Source of the DNA: Ceraceosorus guamensis
Lineage: Eukaryota; Basidiomycota; Exobasidiomycetes; Ceraceosorales; Ceraceosoraceae
Direction: 5' to 3'
Assembly: GCF_003144195.1 (NCBI RefSeq)
Contig: NW_020290014.1
Span: 270,746-334,745 of the forward strand
Length of the DNA stretch: 64,000 nucleotides
The notes under the pieces were generated by a model. It was not told the origin of the DNA. It searched no databases and saw nothing but the letters and a program-made list of their open reading frames with translations. This document shows positions 54,269-63,375 of the stretch, piece after piece (position 1 is the first letter of the stretch; each line of letters begins with the position of its first letter). A program made the position numbers and the translations under genes.

Positions 54269-54857
54269 TATCGAGTCCAACTCACGACTAGAAATGCGGG
54301 CTAGGCATGCTTTGCGAGCTGATGGAAGGCAGAGGCAGGTTGGCGAGCCTGCTCCGCGCATGATTGCCCCCCACGGCTCGCGCTTGCGATCCTGCAAATC
54401 TCAATCGTGAACTCTGGATGCATCATTGAGATTCATCGATGATTCACATTCAGGATTCTTGATTCTTGATTTGATTATTCACAAATTCACGCCTCACGAG
54501 TGATTTTTTTGCACCGCCCCGCAACGGCAGGAACGCATCCATGCGCGCGATTCACGTGACTGGATTTTAACCTTAATTGTCCCCGCGGCAACGCCGCACG
54601 CGACGCGCATCATGCAGTCAGCAAAGATCACGAGCCGCGCGGGCGATCGACCTCAACCTCGATCACGTCTGGAGTGAGACCATCCGGTGGATGATGCGTA
54701 CCGTATGCCGCTGCCTGCACCCTGCCACCACCACCATATCAAGCAAGCAGCTGACGCTACACTCACGACTGCGAACGAGGTAGAGGGCGACGATTGCCAA
54801 GGGACAGCGTCGGTCTAAGCGCTACATTCAAGATTGGCGTGACTATCGCCGCTGCCA
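54269..54857. promoter_or_regulatory. Divergent promoter region of FYV7-like and SANTA-domain genes, rich in decamers
   Basis: Contains ACTCACGACT at 54280-54289 and 54761-54770 and a dense AT-rich patch (54403-54510) of ATTCACATTC, GATTCTTGATTC and AATTCACGCC-like elements. No reading frame is supported. Confidence 0.55.
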
Positions 54858-57800
54858 ATGTCTCGCGCAGATTCTTCACGCTCCCGCGACTCTGCGGCTG
54901 GAAGCTTGCCAAGCAACGCGGGCCGTCCGAGCCATGTAGCAGCGCTCGCTAGGAGTTGGCCTCCACCGCGAACCGCATCCAGCACTACCTCGCGATCCAG
55001 CTTTGCTCGACCTATAGCACCAACAGCTCGGGTGCATAGTCGAATGGAAAAGTTCGAGAGCGGAATGGCGCGATCCTCAGCATCATCTGGCAGCAGACCT
55101 GGCCCTCCGCCATTGCCGCCCAACCGCGCTCCGAGTGCCAGCAGGCCAAGTTCCCGCAATCTGGTTGCTTCTCCAGCTGCTCCGGTACATCCCTGGTCTC
55201 ACCGTCCGACTCCGTCTCGGTCATCGGCCTCCGTCTCTGCTAGGGGCAGTGCCCATCCTTATCCACGTCCTGACGAGCGCGTAAGCTACCATCACGCTCC
55301 TCCCGCGCGTTCGGCTCATCCACAAGTCCATCCGTACTATGGCGCCAGTCCCATGCCTGAGGTGAGTCACAACAGCTGTGAAGTCAGGTTGCCATAATGT
55401 GATGGGCCGCTTAACGTCCATTCTGCCATCATCAGGCGGTCGCTAGAGCGTACGAGCGTCTCGTGTCTCAGTCGCCCGCTCCATCGGATCGCATGGGTTA
55501 TGGCCGCTCGGTCTCTGTTGTCTCGTATACCGACGGGGCAGGTGTCGGACAGTCAGCATACTATGCGGCGCAACATGATACTCCCCACCGCGCACACGCT
55601 CATTATGAGCTCCGCTCGCATCCTGCACACGCTTTGGCCATGACTCCAAGCAGGGCCCGCACCGCATCAAGCATGGCCCATCATCAGCACCGCGAGCAAG
55701 CGAGTGTGCAGCCGGTCTCTACAACTCCCCAACATCGTGGCATGACCAGGCAAGATCTGGCATTTGTCTTGGGCGCTGCGAGGAGAGGAGCCAGCGTCAC
55801 GCCAGCCATGATCAACTCGCCGGTGGGCTTGTCACGCGCTCCTGCCCAAATGTCCGGAGCGAATAGATTGTTTGCAGTGCAAGGAAGTCCCAAGCGGCCG
55901 GCTGCGGACGCTGCAAGCAGTCCTTCTTCCTTGACTGCGGATAGGGCTGCCCACACATCCCGGGATCACCGCCAAATACAGCAAGCTGTTGCAGCGTCGA
56001 GTTCCACAGAGGCGCATGCCGGTAATGCCGCCATCCGCGTTCTCACCCGGCAGGTGATTGACGATGCAACGCCCAATCTCGATGTGCTCGCGGTCGAAGT
56101 TCCTCAAGCTCTCGACGCGCAAGAAGCGGATGCTGGTATTGGCGAGGTGGCTGATGCTACCAATGCCATTGCGTCCTCTCAAAACCTGGCCAAGGAGACA
56201 GCAAGAAGCTCTCTCCAGCTTGAGAAGACTGTCGATGATGGCGATCACGAAATTGAGGAGGCTTCGGAGAGAGTTAAGACTGTTGGAGAGGAACGCTCTG
56301 CTGCACACCTCCCTGAATCTGAGCCAGAGCCCGAATTAGAGGACACCTCCATCTCTCGGGATCAGCCTTCGGGCTTCGCCAGGACATTAATCGCGATCGA
56401 CGTACCGATGGCCATCGAGCAACCGCAGAGAGCTGCAAAAGCATCCAAACTCACCCAGCGGGACGAGGCGGCGGCCCGGTCGGAACTACCGCCCACTCAG
56501 GTGCGACAGACAGACACCCAGCCGATTCAATCTGGTCGCGTGCCCGCGCCAGCAGCTAAGCCAAGCGTCGCGCTAAGCTCATGGTTCCTCACGTTGGTAT
56601 CGCTGCGTCGAGGTCCATCAATCAACGACAGAACGGGGAAGCTGTCATACTGGTTCTACGTTGAAGGCGTCAGGATGAATGCCGATGGAGATGAAGAACA
56701 ATGGCACTCCTCATTCGTGCATGGACGTAAGGACTCTCGCACTGTGAACACCACTAGCGGCAGTCTCTACACTCTAATTGGGCCCATCAATCGAGACAAG
56801 ATGAGCAACCTTGGATGGGGTAATGTTGTGATCAGTCACTTCGAAGACGGCTTCCCGGAGGACTGGCTGGACGTCGTCTGCGAGGATATTGAGCATCGAC
56901 AAGCGCTGCGGGAGCGGTCAGCCAGTCGGGCTGAGGCCGCCGCGACCGCAGCATCCAGCAACAGGCATGCAGCCAAGAGGAAGCGCACCTCGGGTCCCAC
57001 TACATCCGCCTCTTCTTCGCGCAAGTCTGGGCCCAGTCGTGCAGGTGCAGAAGCATCGCTACAGCCGGAGGTCTCAGGGTCTTTCGGCGACGACAGTGCA
57101 AACACACCAAATGCCACATCTGAGCCCAAAGTGAAGCGCAAGCGAGGTCGACCTTCGAAGGCGGAGTCAGAAATCATCAGGCAAGAGCGGGAGCAAGTGG
57201 CAGCGGAGAAAGAAGCTCGCAGAGCGGAAGTTGTTGCACGCAAATCTGAGAATGGCCGAGTTGTTGCAAGGAAATCTGAGAATGGCCGAGCTGCGCAAGC
57301 GGCAGCTCAGAGCTCACCAAAGAGAGACGTGCCCAGTAGAAAGCTTACAGCTGCTCAGAAAGCAACGATGCTTGCTGATGCAAATGTGCCTCGTCGCAAC
57401 TCAACGTCACCTCGCAAAGGAGGGCGTGATTCCGGCACAGCCTCTCGTGCTGTAGATGATGCTGAGGACGCTTCAGCGAGCACAAATCAGGATGCGTCTC
57501 ATCAGCCGCCAAGGCCGCCCCACGGGGCTGCTGCAAGTCTCGTCGACGCGGAGCTGGAATCATTTACAAATGCTGCCGCCGCGCCTGCCAACGACCTTCT
57601 TGTGGTCGCGGACCCGGACGACAGCCTGTTGCGCGCTGCTCCCTTGGCTGCGCGCAGAAAGAGCGGATCCAACAAGCGTCGACTCCGCGATTCTGACGAA
57701 GAGCTGGCTGAAGGCGTTGACGAGAACGCCGAGGACATTTCGAAACCATCACGATCCACAAGCACAGCGAGTCCACACAAGGGCCGCGCTGGACGTTCCA

Positions 57801-58828
57801 GCGCAACGAGCACACCTCGTCTTATGGAACAGAAGGCGCCGCTCACACCTGCGCAGGTCAAAGCGCTGCCGCGCGAGATGCAGAATCTTGGACGATCACC
57901 ATTCGGGGTACTTGGTGTTGTCAAACGAGCGCTTCTGGAGACTTCGAGTGGCCAAGGCCCTCTTGAGCGCGCATCAAATGTCACCGGCAAATCTATCGAT
58001 AGCTCTCGCAGAGCGAGTGTCGGGGACGCGATCGAGCCGGACGACCATGAGAAGAAAGCTACAAGACCTGTACGCGCCCGCGCCTCAGCTGGGATTGGCA
58101 AGTGGTGGGAGATCACGCCTGCTCCAGTGCGTCCGGCAGAGCGGAAGATCGCGCCACTGCGGAGCGTTCAGAGCGTGCCAAATCTAGCGACTCTGCCTAC
58201 CGAAAGCCCCAAGATCACCCAAAACAAGCCATCGCCAAGAAAAGCAAGTGCGCCGGTTTCACCTGCGCGAAGAGCGGGACCCAAGGGGGTCACAGCGAGA
58301 GCACCACTGATCGGCAAGGAACGCCGCCCCCCTTCGTCCGACGAGGAGGAGTCTTCACCCGACACGGCGTCAGACTATGACGGCGATTTTGACCAGAATC
58401 GACCGCCTTCACGCAGACGCCTGCCCACTGTGACCGTAGCCCGCCGATCTGCACCGCACGAGAGCAAGAAGCCCATGCGTCCAAAAGCAAGTAGCAGCGG
58501 ACGCCGTCGATCTTCTGAGGGAGCGGGCAGGGCGAAAAAACAGCCTTCCGCTTCTAAGCGCCCCTCGCCTCGCAAGCAAGCGCGTGCGAGTGCGCCGGGA
58601 AGAATTGGCATCCAGAACGCTGAAGGCGGTGAGGTAGAGGGTGATTTGTCGTCGGACGACGAATTTGAGCAGTCTATGCATGATCCATCGATCGAGTCAG
58701 CAGCCCAAAAGCCCAAGGAAGCTCGCAAGGCAGTTACGGAGACATTCTTGGATCGCCAGAATCGGGTCACCTTCGCGATTGCGGATCCCCGCGAACTTCC
58801 CCCGGACGATTACGAGTTTAGCGATTGA
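54858..58828 (+). CDS. KNL2: SANTA-domain protein, KNL2/Mis18BP1-like (candidate centromere licensing factor)
   Basis: Exons 54858-55361 and 55436-58828, joined over a 74-nt intron, give 1298 residues. At about residues 547-660 lies a SANTA domain: SSWFLTLVS, then SYWFYVEGVR, EEQWHSSFVHGRKDSRTV, TTSGSLYTLIGPINRDKM, NLGWGNVVISHFEDGFPEDW. The order W...VEG...W.SS.I..R...V.T.SGS.Y.L.G.I......G......F..GFP..W is the family signature. An AT-hook core (KRKRGRPSK) follows near residue 734, and a basic stretch ending in ASAGIGKWWEITP near residue 1050 resembles a CENP-C-type motif. The rest is disordered and basic. Known role: KNL2/Mis18BP1 recruits CENP-A deposition machinery to centromeres. No Myb/SANT domain was recognised, so a centromere role is an inference. 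A short direct duplication (VVARKSENGR) occurs near 57230-57290. Confidence 0.75.
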
Positions 58829-59637: not shown

Positions 59638-62600
59638 ATGGCCCACGCCATCACTCTGGACGACTTGCGAGATGCATCTCAAACCGGGAACAGTGCTTCA
59701 TCCACCGATTTGCCGTCCTCATCTTGCCTTCCCCGCTCGAGGGAGGGAGCGATAGATGCGCTCACACCAGAGAGACCTCGAAGACGTGGCAGAAGGAGGC
59801 GGAGCTCGGAGCAACCGGATGCTACGATACACTGGTGGGAGCGCGCCAGCGACGCTGACAAAGATGGAGACGAAGGCGGCTCACAGAAGGGTGTCCAAGA
59901 CTTGTCAAGGTCAGAACAGGACTCACGCGCGCAGACCAGTGCCTCCCTCGCTGTCGGTCCAGGACAAGTGCCTTTTCACTCTGAGCCGGCCCAGCGACCT
60001 CAGCTTCAACTCAGGACCAGCTCATATGGCGCCAGCAAGGAGCTTCAAATGCCTTCGCAGGAGATTGCACAGCCGGAAGACGACTTCGAGCCAAATAGCC
60101 CCCCCGGGGCTCGATCCCCAGCAGCGGACTTCCTCTCCGCTTTCGCCAGCTTGCACAGCGTAGTGGATGCCAGCATAAGCAGCGATTCCAGCTGGTCCCT
60201 AAACCGAGCCAGATCGCTGTCGCCATCTCCATTTCCATCCTCAAATCCACAAGTTATACAGCAAGCGATCAGCGACGCCGCTTTAGAGGTGCAGGACACG
60301 CCGCACGCTTCCTCTTTGCCCAACGCTGTCCCACCGATGCCTATGCCTCTTGGTCTAGCGTCGGCTGCAGCTGCTTTGTACGGAAGCCAGGATGATTCAC
60401 AGCCCGCTGAGGCTGGCATTGCGTCCAGATACCCAAAGAACAATGCTCGTTTACCGTCATCCTTGCCCTCTCTTCCACCGCGGAGCCTCGCGCGGGACGA
60501 CGAAGGCGCACTCATCTGTGGAGGCCGCTTTCAACTCGGGCGCACCCTTGGCTTCGGCGGTTCCAGCACAGTCAGAGAAGCCTTGGATCGAGGCGGCCCT
60601 CAACACGAAACGGCATCTGCGCATCAAGCAGCTCGCGTCGCGGTGAAGATCGTTCAATTGGAGGCTCACGAGGAAGAGGCCGAAGCTGAGGCCGGTTTGT
60701 GGTCCTCTTTGCCGAGCCATGCACATTTGCTTCCCCTCCTTGAGCGAGAGGTCGTTGAGCCTTCATCCGCCTCAGACAAGCGGCTGCTGTTTCTAGTAAT
60801 GCCGCTTGCGGATGCCGGAAGCTTGTTGAATTTCGTCCGTGCCGAGGGCGGCTTGTCAGTCTCGATCGACGAGGCAGGTTTAAATGGCGTTGTTAATTCC
60901 TCCAACTTACGAAGCCCGCATGGTCCTCATCACGCAAGGCCCCAAAGCACGTACACGATCAACCGCTCTCCTTTGTCTAGCACAAGCAGCCGGACAGGGA
61001 GCGGATTTTTGCCTGGTCGCACTGGAGGAGCTGCACGGATCATGTCAGATGGCAACGGAGTTGCAATCAGCCCCAATGGGCCGAGCAGCTTGACGGGTCC
61101 GCGCTACAGCGGTCAGTCTCCCGGAGGACTGGGAGCGTCAGGAGGCCTCCTTCGACGCGCTTCAAGCCGAGCTGCACCCAAATCACGAGGCATTCCTCTT
61201 GCCATCGCGCGCGACGTGATGGCCCAGTTGTGCGCAGGTTTGCGAGTGCTGCAGTCTCTTCACATTCGGCATGGCGATCTCAAACTCGAAAACGTGCTTG
61301 GTCAGCATGCGCCAAATGGCAGGGGAGGAGACGGGAGGCGATTGATCTGGCGTCTGGCAGACTTTGGGCTATCTTGCGTCGTTCGGGAACATCAGGGAGC
61401 GAGCGATGCGCATGGAGTAGCCAGCCTCGATACACGCGAGTCGCGAGCAAAGCTCTCGGCAGCTCATCCAACTCGGGCGAAGGGAGCAAGCGAGAGCGCC
61501 ATCCTGACGAATAACCATGCAGCTGTCTCCATTCCTCGTGGCGGCTCTCTGGCTTATGCGGCGCCGGAAGCACTGCGCACCGCCACGGAGCAGTCCCAGC
61601 TGCTGCACAAAGCTTCGCCTTTTGCTACAGATCACTGGGCTCTGGGATGCATCTTCTATGCGCTCTTGGCCGGCCGGCTTCCTTTCACCGACTCATTCGA
61701 GCCCCGGCTACAGCTGAAAATTACACGTGGAGCATGGTCTATGCCCAATCGTCTTGCGCGCCGCAACCCTCGTAGGAGTCGGACATCCAGTATGAGTGTC
61801 AGGGGAGGCAGCGCGGATGCTCAGTTTAGCAGATTGGCAAGCGCAGTGCAACCGAGCACTAGCGTGCAAAGCTTCACCAGTGACATGTTTTCGGGGCCAG
61901 CCGGGCATCAACTGCCAAGCCAGAGTTTAGGCGCAGCATTCGACATGAGCGCAAGCTTACCAGCCTTGCCGGCCGGCGCTATTGACTGGTCATCGAAGGT
62001 CTCTCCGGCTCAGCGTTCCACCTTTGGAGATGATGAAGATGCCAGTGACACGGATGACGAGGCCGCAGAGGTGGACAAGGCAACGAGATTGTGGGACGGC
62101 ACGCGACTTGAAAGGAGCGCGGCAAGAGAGCTTCTCAGGGGTCTCTTGGAGCCAGATGCGGGACTGAGGTGGAACTTGTCAGATGTCGAGCAATGTGCGT
62201 TCTTGCAGCAAGGTGGAAAGGGTGCACCTCAACCAAATCTGCTGGACGATCAAGATCCTAGGACCCACCCAGACACTCTGATCACCTCAAACGCGCCCCA
62301 CGACGCCCCACCAGCTCAGTCAGACGACCAGAACGCTGCTAGGACACTTTCGTTCGAAAGAAGGCCTCCATCGCAGGAACGTTCACAAGGTCGAGACTCA
62401 AGCCTGAGCCGATCGCGGCCGGCTCGCCTTAGCTCAGGTCCTCATGATGCGGTAGGAGCAGAGCGAACTCCGACAGGGCCACCCGTGCTGGCCAGCCAGA
62501 CGGAATTCCTTGACGTCTCACTGCCCAACGGTCAGGCCCTCGAGCACGCTCAGAGGGGCAGACAGCACAGGCGAATGGCAGATGTGCTTGAGAATGTTCG

Positions 62601-63375
62601 CTCGGATCATTCCCTCACAACCTCGAGTAGCGAACGACCCGTTCTTCTAAACTCCGCCGCGCAGAGCTGCAGCCGCAGTCGCAGTCGAAGTCGTTCTAGG
62701 GCAGGCTGGGAACCAGGAAAGGCGTCTCAGTCAGGGCCTCCTGCGAAAGACGATGCATCCTCGGGAGCAGGATGCGACCAGGAGATATTGTGGCAGTCAC
62801 AAGCCCCTCGTCGGCCTGGACTGCAGGCTCGTGCGTCCTCTGCCGAACTGCTATCTCACGTGCCAGCAGAGGATGGCCCTGCGATGCAGCGACGGCCCTC
62901 GCGAAGCGTCAGTCGCTCCAGAAATTCACAGAAGAGTGATGCAGGCGTCAGCTCAGAGAGGCGCTCAGTTGGACGAAGCAACACAAGTCGGAGCCGCAGC
63001 CGAGCTCCGGATGCTTTGGTTAGTCTGCTGAGAAACTCTCAGCAGAATGAGGAGAGCGGAGGAAGAACACGTGGTGCGCGCTCTTCGACAACGTCGTCTA
63101 ATTTCTCAGCGCACGGATCGTCTTCGTCATCGAGTCCTGGGCCGCGAGAGCATGTGCGCAGCCCACACTCTCTCCAGCATGCGACTGGAGCAACTATTTA
63201 TCGCGAAGACTCAAGTCGGGCTCTACGTGATGAAGCACCCCTTTCTCAGCACGAAGAGGAGCACGCTCACTGGTGGCAGCGTGGGAGAACGCGGGATTCG
63301 AGACGGCATGCCCAGGCTACTCCTGACACTGCGGTTGATGACGGTACCAAAAGTTCGAGGTGGCCTTGGCATTGA
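59638..63375 (+). CDS. Large Ser/Thr protein kinase with HGD catalytic-loop variant
   Basis: One uninterrupted frame of 1245 residues from an ATG. The kinase domain starts near residue 294 with FQLGRTLGFGGSSTVREA, Lys at about 336 in VAVKIV, hinge-like LLFLVMPLADAGSLLNFV, catalytic loop HIRHGDLKLENVL (HGD at 545-547 instead of HRD), DFG at about 575, and SLAYAAPEAL near 640. DHWALGCIFYALLAGRLPF is a normal subdomain IX. Inserts are large: about 100 Ser/Gly-rich residues before the catalytic loop and over 100 residues after subdomain X; the final helix resumes at RSAARELLRGLLEPDAGLRW. Lys, Asp(HGD), Asn and DFG Asp are present, so it is probably active, but lacks the arginine that usually coordinates activation-loop phosphorylation. 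The tail is rich in SR dipeptides. I cannot name an orthologue; the layout recalls fungal CAMK-group or Nim1-like kinases. Confidence 0.87.
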   Translation: MAHAITLDDLRDASQTGNSASSTDLPSSSCLPRSREGAIDALTPERPRRRGRRRRSSEQPDATIHWWERASDADKDGDEGGSQKGVQDLSRSEQDSRAQTSASLAVGPGQVPFHSEPAQRPQLQLRTSSYGASKELQMPSQEIAQPEDDFEPNSPPGARSPAADFLSAFASLHSVVDASISSDSSWSLNRARSLSPSPFPSSNPQVIQQAISDAALEVQDTPHASSLPNAVPPMPMPLGLASAAAALYGSQDDSQPAEAGIASRYPKNNARLPSSLPSLPPRSLARDDEGALICGGRFQLGRTLGFGGSSTVREALDRGGPQHETASAHQAARVAVKIVQLEAHEEEAEAEAGLWSSLPSHAHLLPLLEREVVEPSSASDKRLLFLVMPLADAGSLLNFVRAEGGLSVSIDEAGLNGVVNSSNLRSPHGPHHARPQSTYTINRSPLSSTSSRTGSGFLPGRTGGAARIMSDGNGVAISPNGPSSLTGPRYSGQSPGGLGASGGLLRRASSRAAPKSRGIPLAIARDVMAQLCAGLRVLQSLHIRHGDLKLENVLGQHAPNGRGGDGRRLIWRLADFGLSCVVREHQGASDAHGVASLDTRESRAKLSAAHPTRAKGASESAILTNNHAAVSIPRGGSLAYAAPEALRTATEQSQLLHKASPFATDHWALGCIFYALLAGRLPFTDSFEPRLQLKITRGAWSMPNRLARRNPRRSRTSSMSVRGGSADAQFSRLASAVQPSTSVQSFTSDMFSGPAGHQLPSQSLGAAFDMSASLPALPAGAIDWSSKVSPAQRSTFGDDEDASDTDDEAAEVDKATRLWDGTRLERSAARELLRGLLEPDAGLRWNLSDVEQCAFLQQGGKGAPQPNLLDDQDPRTHPDTLITSNAPHDAPPAQSDDQNAARTLSFERRPPSQERSQGRDSSLSRSRPARLSSGPHDAVGAERTPTGPPVLASQTEFLDVSLPNGQALEHAQRGRQHRRMADVLENVRSDHSLTTSSSERPVLLNSAAQSCSRSRSRSRSRAGWEPGKASQSGPPAKDDASSGAGCDQEILWQSQAPRRPGLQARASSAELLSHVPAEDGPAMQRRPSRSVSRSRNSQKSDAGVSSERRSVGRSNTSRSRSRAPDALVSLLRNSQQNEESGGRTRGARSSTTSSNFSAHGSSSSSSPGPREHVRSPHSLQHATGATIYREDSSRALRDEAPLSQHEEEHAHWWQRGRTRDSRRHAQATPDTAVDDGTKSSRWPWH

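Follow-up and report, generated by a model that had tools for sequence, protein, structure and literature searches.

The stretch of DNA analysed here, a 64,000-nucleotide piece of contig NW_020290014.1 that is referred to below as the window, contains at 54858–58828 a gene whose predicted product possesses a SANTA domain. Judging from its sequence, the gene is very probably the fungal ortholog of KNL2/M18BP1, an adaptor known from animals and plants that guides the CENP-A loading machinery to the centromere and helps to define the site of centromere renewal in every cell cycle. All features of this gene lie on the plus strand. The start codon was placed at the ATG of 54858, which is the first ATG 3′ of an in-frame TGA at 54840. 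Exon 1 (54858–55361; 168 codons) is followed by a predicted intron of 74 nucleotides (55362–55435; GTGAGT...CATCAG), which was deduced from the splice consensus at its ends and from the open joined frame, and by exon 2 (55436–58828), an open frame of 1130 codons plus TGA. The joined exons make up 1298 stop-free codons ending with the TGA at 58826–58828, giving a deduced protein of 1298 residues. An earlier note on this DNA had described an open gene here; the gene model bears it out, and the coordinates and residue numbers given in that note were correct, being off by a few residues at most.

The N-terminus encoded by exon 1 is rich in Ser, Pro, and Arg and probably disordered, and exon 1 gave no Pfam match at E ≤ 10 by hmmscan. 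With exon 2, hmmscan at the same threshold listed only SANTA and a sub-threshold AT hook, and an NCBIfam scan gave no match. When the protein was divided into 50-residue blocks, the net charge was positive in 19 of the 26 blocks, negative in six, and zero in one, the acidic part being located mainly at residues 351–500. The arms outside SANTA have few aromatic residues, and it is for this reason, rather than from a disorder predictor, that we read them as disordered.

SANTA domain and AT-hook-like element

The SANTA domain spans 56576–56911 (residues about 549–660), and its Pfam-matched core corresponds to 56648–56872 (residues 573–647). A six-frame search of the assembly (23.8 Mb in 199 contigs) with PF09133, the cut-off of which is 21 bits, found a single match, and this was the present gene (60.9 bits, E 2.8e-15). 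Hmmscan of exon 2 gave 56.2 bits (E 5e-15) for the same family. The profile search, with 56–61 bits against a cut-off of 21, thus confirmed the SANTA signature that had been noticed from the letters. None of 14 control genomes gave a match in the PF09133 search. In addition, a phmmer search of all PDB chains with exon 2 as the query found only one sequence at E ≤ 10, human M18BP1 (9r6h_A, E 8.9e-6), with 23 identical residues in 74 aligned columns; no other PDB match was obtained at this threshold. Five SANTA residues are discussed for the human protein, W413, H414, R421, W467, and K468 (PMC13294675), and the first four of them are kept here as W591, H592, R599, and W645. A search with the SANTA region found no relatives in viral contigs or GTDB prokaryote genomes, which are collections not meant for fungi. 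One Swi/Snf paper found under the name SANTA domain was set aside, since it deals with SANT_A of Swi3, which is not the same domain.

A chance match or a spurious domain call would fit the low confidence of the single-sequence fold models and their failure to give a convincing structural match. However, both profile scores exceed the cut-off by more than 35 bits, and the pairwise match to human M18BP1 was obtained independently of the profile. The two independent searches, by the PF09133 profile and by phmmer, in practice refute a spurious SANTA call, and we give it practically no credence.

The AT-hook-like element KRKRGRPSKAES is located at 57134–57169 (residues 735–746), about 75 residues past SANTA. 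Its core, KRGRPSK, is present at the position at which the earlier note had placed an AT hook, and to this extent the claim held; the hmmscan score for PF02178 was 12 bits (E 0.21), under the cut-off of 17.4 bits, and Pfam significance was therefore not reached. The PF02178 model itself is weak: the KKRGRPPK core of the CENP-C candidate of this genome, described below, was unlisted even at E ≤ 0.5. We also prepared a comparison set of 63 mechanically picked open reading frames (ORFs) of at least 250 amino acids (30,673 amino acids), taken from the window and sixteen 10-kb stretches of the assembly and including this gene. The [KR]GRP[SRKGP] core of the SANTA protein was the only one in this set.

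The WW stretch and the CENP-C motif

The stretch RASAGIGKWW (58079–58108, residues 1050–1059), which continues as RASAGIGKWWEI over residues 1050–1061, contains the pair W1058–W1059; no other tryptophan occurs in the 648-residue tail. Because this stretch had been likened to CENP-C motifs, it was scored with a CENP-C/CENPC-k matrix made from six motifs (four from the PDB, one from the CENP-C candidate of this genome, and one from a plant KNL2). The six true motifs, left out one by one, scored 41–56. In contrast, the WW site scored 1.3 and ranked 32 of 1285 windows, and the best site in every one of 5000 tail shuffles equaled or exceeded its score. The best window of the whole protein scored 14.8 and was found inside SANTA. 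These scores led us to conclude that, by the matrix test, the protein contains no CENP-C motif. In addition, the pattern R....P..[YFWHM]W was not found anywhere in the protein, and a phmmer search of the PDB with a 40-residue query covering the WW stretch gave no match at E ≤ 10. The same search with the CENP-C motif of this genome gave seven rows, five of which were named CENP-C or MIF2; another had a locus-style name and a stretch identical to that of MIF2, and the remaining one was unrelated (E 1). The CENP-C-like motif proposed at the WW pair was not borne out.

The stretch may also be compared with the consensus of the CENP-C central region, RxSxxPSxWW (PMC4830207). R, S, W, and W (four of the six fixed positions) are present at the same spacing; the stretch lacks P and the second S. 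This raises the possibility that the gene encodes a KNL2 ortholog with a WW stretch acting as a degenerate contact of the central-region type, Arg1050 lying on the acidic patch of H2A/H2B and W1058–W1059 on the CENP-A tail. The equal spacing from Arg to WW and the rarity of the pattern in the tail, which has no other tryptophan, would favor such a contact: R.......WW appeared in five of 20,000 tail shuffles (0.00025), and R.S.....WW appeared in one (0.00005). Among the seven WW pairs in the 63 ORFs, moreover, only this one has Arg at −8. However, the pattern was picked post hoc, after its sighting in the sequence, and with 20,000 shuffles of the whole protein the rates were 0.00515 and 0.0005, about twenty and ten times the tail rates, respectively. 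The other six WW pairs, two of which are in the neighboring kinase-like frame, the missing Pro and second Ser, the matrix score, and the lack of a PDB match also argue against it. We consider this contact unlikely on the basis of the WW stretch as assessed in this single sequence.

Candidate partners and the KNL2 assignment

Candidates for the partners of KNL2 were found in the same assembly. The top PDB matches of the CENP-A candidate (G000:C35:224028–224357) were two cnp1 chains (E 3.6e-45), which preceded the H3 chains among the best 60 of 175 matches. In the alignment, loop 1 of this candidate (L006:1477–1995, minus strand), NAYDGSGGAGLRW, is three residues longer than that of cnp1. The CENP-C candidate was found through its cupin domain (70.8 bits at C15:14810). 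The cupin family also matched eight of the 14 prokaryote controls at E ≤ 1, in none of them above the cut-off. In the open frame directly upstream of the cupin frame, a canonical CENP-C motif (GLRRSGRYRYAPLEHWRGETVRY) occurs together with the AT-hook core KKRGRPPK. Taken alone, this upstream frame had no CENP-C Pfam match, and the two frames were kept as two and not joined. The AT-hook core precedes the CENP-C motif (L016:4503–5729, G000:C15), and the CENP-C candidate and the SANTA protein are thus alike in combining centromere features with an AT-hook core.

The Scm3 candidate (C14:293103) scored 33.5 bits in the genome search and 29.1 bits by hmmscan. The frame with the Scm3 domain (L018:3944–6100, G000:C14) also contains RRRSSRARAKPCYNV, which looks like a partial CENP-C motif; it scored 20.3 on the matrix compared to 41–56 for the true motifs, and 165 of 5000 shuffles reached that score. 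The Mis18 candidate (Yippee-Mis18), on contig C8, was matched in two pieces, the first scoring 32.5 bits and the second 25.7 bits (together 58.9 bits); the second match includes one TAG, as would be expected if the frame was read beyond the end of an exon. The frame of the first piece alone scored 24.6 bits, slightly under the cut-off of 26.6 bits, and the frame tried for the second piece showed no Yippee match. The PDB matches of the first piece were human Mis18-alpha (E 0.0018) and mis18 (E 0.086 and 0.18); a capsid without relation to Mis18 was also listed (E 0.074). Because of the sub-cut-off score of the single frame, the missing Yippee match in the other frame, and the weak PDB matches, Mis18 is less well supported than the other three candidate partners (CENP-A, CENP-C, and Scm3).

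As for other kinetochore proteins, CENP-N was detected, its two pieces scoring 51.3 and 28 bits, and CENP-I (PF07778) was not found in the assembly by a search that had no positive control. CENP-T was not found either; a CENP-T_C match of 33.7 bits was rejected, since the sequence there reads as that of histone H4, next to H3. The H3 and H4 genes adjoin on opposite strands at this place (G000:C52:87341–89468, L044), and it is the H4 stretch that matches CENP-T_C above the cut-off.

The assignment of the gene to KNL2/M18BP1 is well supported because its SANTA score is far above the cut-off, one copy was found, the sole PDB match is human M18BP1, four of the five SANTA residues are kept, and candidate CENP-A, CENP-C, Scm3, and Mis18 co-occur in the genome. 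The proposal of the earlier note, a candidate fungal KNL2 with a possible CENP-C-like motif, was therefore supported as to the KNL2 identity and found no support in the profile test as to the motif. The centromere function of the protein is presumed by analogy with its known relatives.

Several points weigh against this assignment. All of the 14 control genomes of the SANTA search were prokaryotic, with no eukaryote among them, and the orthology call is based on profile and pairwise sequence matches and not on a SANTA tree. K468 of the human protein is replaced by Leu646; the residue at this position is also changed in plant beta-KNL2, where it is Glu (PMC13294675). The folds predicted from the single sequence were of low quality (mean pLDDT, the predicted local distance difference test score, of 49.7 for 166 residues and 44.4 for 118 residues). 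Foldseek with the 118-residue model found no PDB match at E ≤ 0.001 among 735 matches (E ≤ 10), and human M18BP1 was absent from the best 50 of them. We conclude nothing from the fold models or Foldseek because of the low model confidence. The protein is also missing two features of non-mammalian vertebrate KNL2, Myb/SANT and the CENP-C motif. No CENP-C motif was found, in that no window scored above 14.8, and Myb/SANT was absent from the hmmscan listing at E ≤ 10, the filters of which drop most weak matches. The absence of Myb/SANT, which had been remarked on before, has a positive control, since PF00249 gave 16 matches elsewhere in the assembly at E ≤ 0.001 and none in this gene. Finally, deletion of SANTA does not abolish the centromere localization of mammalian and chicken M18BP1/KNL2, and the SANTA part is dispensable in Arabidopsis alpha-KNL2 (PMC9210943). 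These localization results concern the mode of docking and not the KNL2 identity, and our estimate is unchanged by them.

Another interpretation is repurposing: the SANTA protein would have taken on a general function in chromatin (for example, in transcription, in heterochromatin, or in DNA binding through the AT hook) without licensing CENP-A. The AT-hook-like element with the long, mostly basic arms and the failure to find Myb and the CENP-C motif would be compatible with such a role, and fission yeast loads CENP-A without M18BP1 (PMC7618776). However, four of the five discussed SANTA residues are kept, the same genome has candidate Mis18, Scm3, CENP-C, and CENP-A, and an AT-hook core is present in its CENP-C candidate as well. 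Furthermore, the centromere targeting of plant alpha-KNL2 itself requires DNA-binding regions (PMC11879092). We therefore regard the repurposing as very unlikely and retain the KNL2/M18BP1 assignment.

The features of known KNL2/M18BP1 proteins are consistent with the assignment. These proteins typically possess SANTA and act in CENP-A deposition (PMC9210943, PMC13294675). A CENP-C-like motif targets KNL2 in chicken, Xenopus, and Arabidopsis (alpha-KNL2), and eutherian mammals and plant beta-KNL2 are described as being without it (PMC9210943, PMC13294675, PMC13021935). Myb/SANT is found in animals and nematodes, and plant KNL2s are described as lacking it (PMC13294675, PMC9210943). On the basis of SANTA, we assign the protein to the KNL2/M18BP1 family, in which the two features missing here are not universal. 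Its predicted layout most closely resembles that of plant beta-KNL2, with SANTA and with neither Myb/SANT nor CENPC-k; DNA binding is reported for beta-KNL2 (PMC13294675), and an AT-hook-like element is present here. A point of difference from plant beta-KNL2 is that the searches of this genome yielded a single SANTA gene and a single Mis18-like gene. The "different domain mix" once ascribed to the protein is thus right in that Myb/SANT was not found, and it is less unusual than it seemed, since plant KNL2s are without Myb/SANT and beta-KNL2 is also without CENPC-k.

The protein shares W413, H414, R421, and W467 of SANTA with human M18BP1, neither has a canonical CENP-C motif, and this genome has candidates for Mis18, HJURP/Scm3, and CENP-C. 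It differs from the human protein in the change of K468 to Leu and in that no SANT/Myb was found; the N-terminal Mis18-binding segments were not recognized either, no search having been aimed at them. Chicken and Xenopus KNL2/M18BP1 share SANTA with it and differ in having a CENP-C motif and SANT (PMC13021935, PMC13294675), neither of which was found here. The chytrid KNL2, which we know by description only, is also a fungal KNL2 but is reported to have CENPC-k (PMC9210943, citing Kral 2016 and Sandmann 2017). The fission yeast Mis18 complex (Mis18, Mis16, Eic1, and Eic2) is similar in its single Mis18 and Scm3 chaperone; S. pombe has no M18BP1 (PMC7618776), whereas this genome has a SANTA protein.

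Possible loading route and neighboring features

Animal M18BP1/KNL2 takes Mis18, and then HJURP with new CENP-A, to the centromere. Xenopus SANTA binds CENP-C, and localization there falls by 90% when SANTA is mutated (PMC9210943, PMC13294675). For efficient targeting, beta-KNL2 requires SANTA and the C-terminus (PMC9210943, PMC13294675), and plant alpha-KNL2 also requires DNA-binding regions that act independently of sequence (PMC11879092). By analogy with this animal and plant work, SANTA most likely docks the protein at centromeric chromatin, probably via CENP-C, and the arms, which are mostly basic and probably disordered and include the AT hook, would contact DNA in a sequence-independent manner. 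Other regions would bring in the Mis18-like (Yippee) protein, which would then recruit the Scm3/HJURP chaperone with new CENP-A–H4; cell-cycle control is presumed on the same grounds. SANTA-led docking on CENP-C combined with DNA contact is the simplest reading because SANTA is kept, no CENP-C motif was found, and an AT hook and basic arms are present; the docking step is itself deduced.

Fission yeast is a leading fungal model for CENP-A loading, and a fungus with an apparently intact KNL2–Mis18–Scm3 set could provide a small-genome model of the animal-type licensing route and would help to establish when yeasts lost KNL2. In S. pombe, Mis18 is recruited through Sad1 (PMC7618776). No basidiomycete KNL2 was described among the matches listed in the literature searched, and this is no proof of novelty because most subscription papers were outside the search. 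A survey of basidiomycete kinetochores covered CENP-A, 16 proteins of the constitutive centromere-associated network (CCAN), and 10 of the KNL1–Mis12–Ndc80 (KMN) network, and the words M18BP1, KNL2, and SANTA are absent from its main text (PMC7794384). As to lineage, the description of the organism as a smut comes from the earlier note. Mating_N (PF12731), a basidiomycete marker, reached 15.8 bits, under its cut-off, and the frame that it matched resembles that of a secreted protein; adenylosuccinate synthetase had as its best PDB match 5i33, a Cryptococcus entry, which does not discriminate between fungal phyla. We also considered a bolder scheme, in which a fungus, probably a basidiomycete, keeps the animal-style KNL2/Mis18/Scm3/CENP-C route with a KNL2 that has shed Myb and the CENP-C motif and uses R-x-S-x5-WW on the nucleosome and the AT hook on DNA. 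This scheme appears rather improbable to us. If it is true, M18BP1 was lost within Dikarya and not before it.

Two further observations were made at the locus. Ten codons are duplicated in tandem in the tail of the SANTA gene (57230–57289, residues 767–786), giving VVARKSENGR twice as read from the translation. The neighboring open frame at 59638–63375 on the plus strand (1245 amino acids) is kinase-like by eye (HGDLKLENVL and DFGLS) and has two WW pairs, located near its ends.

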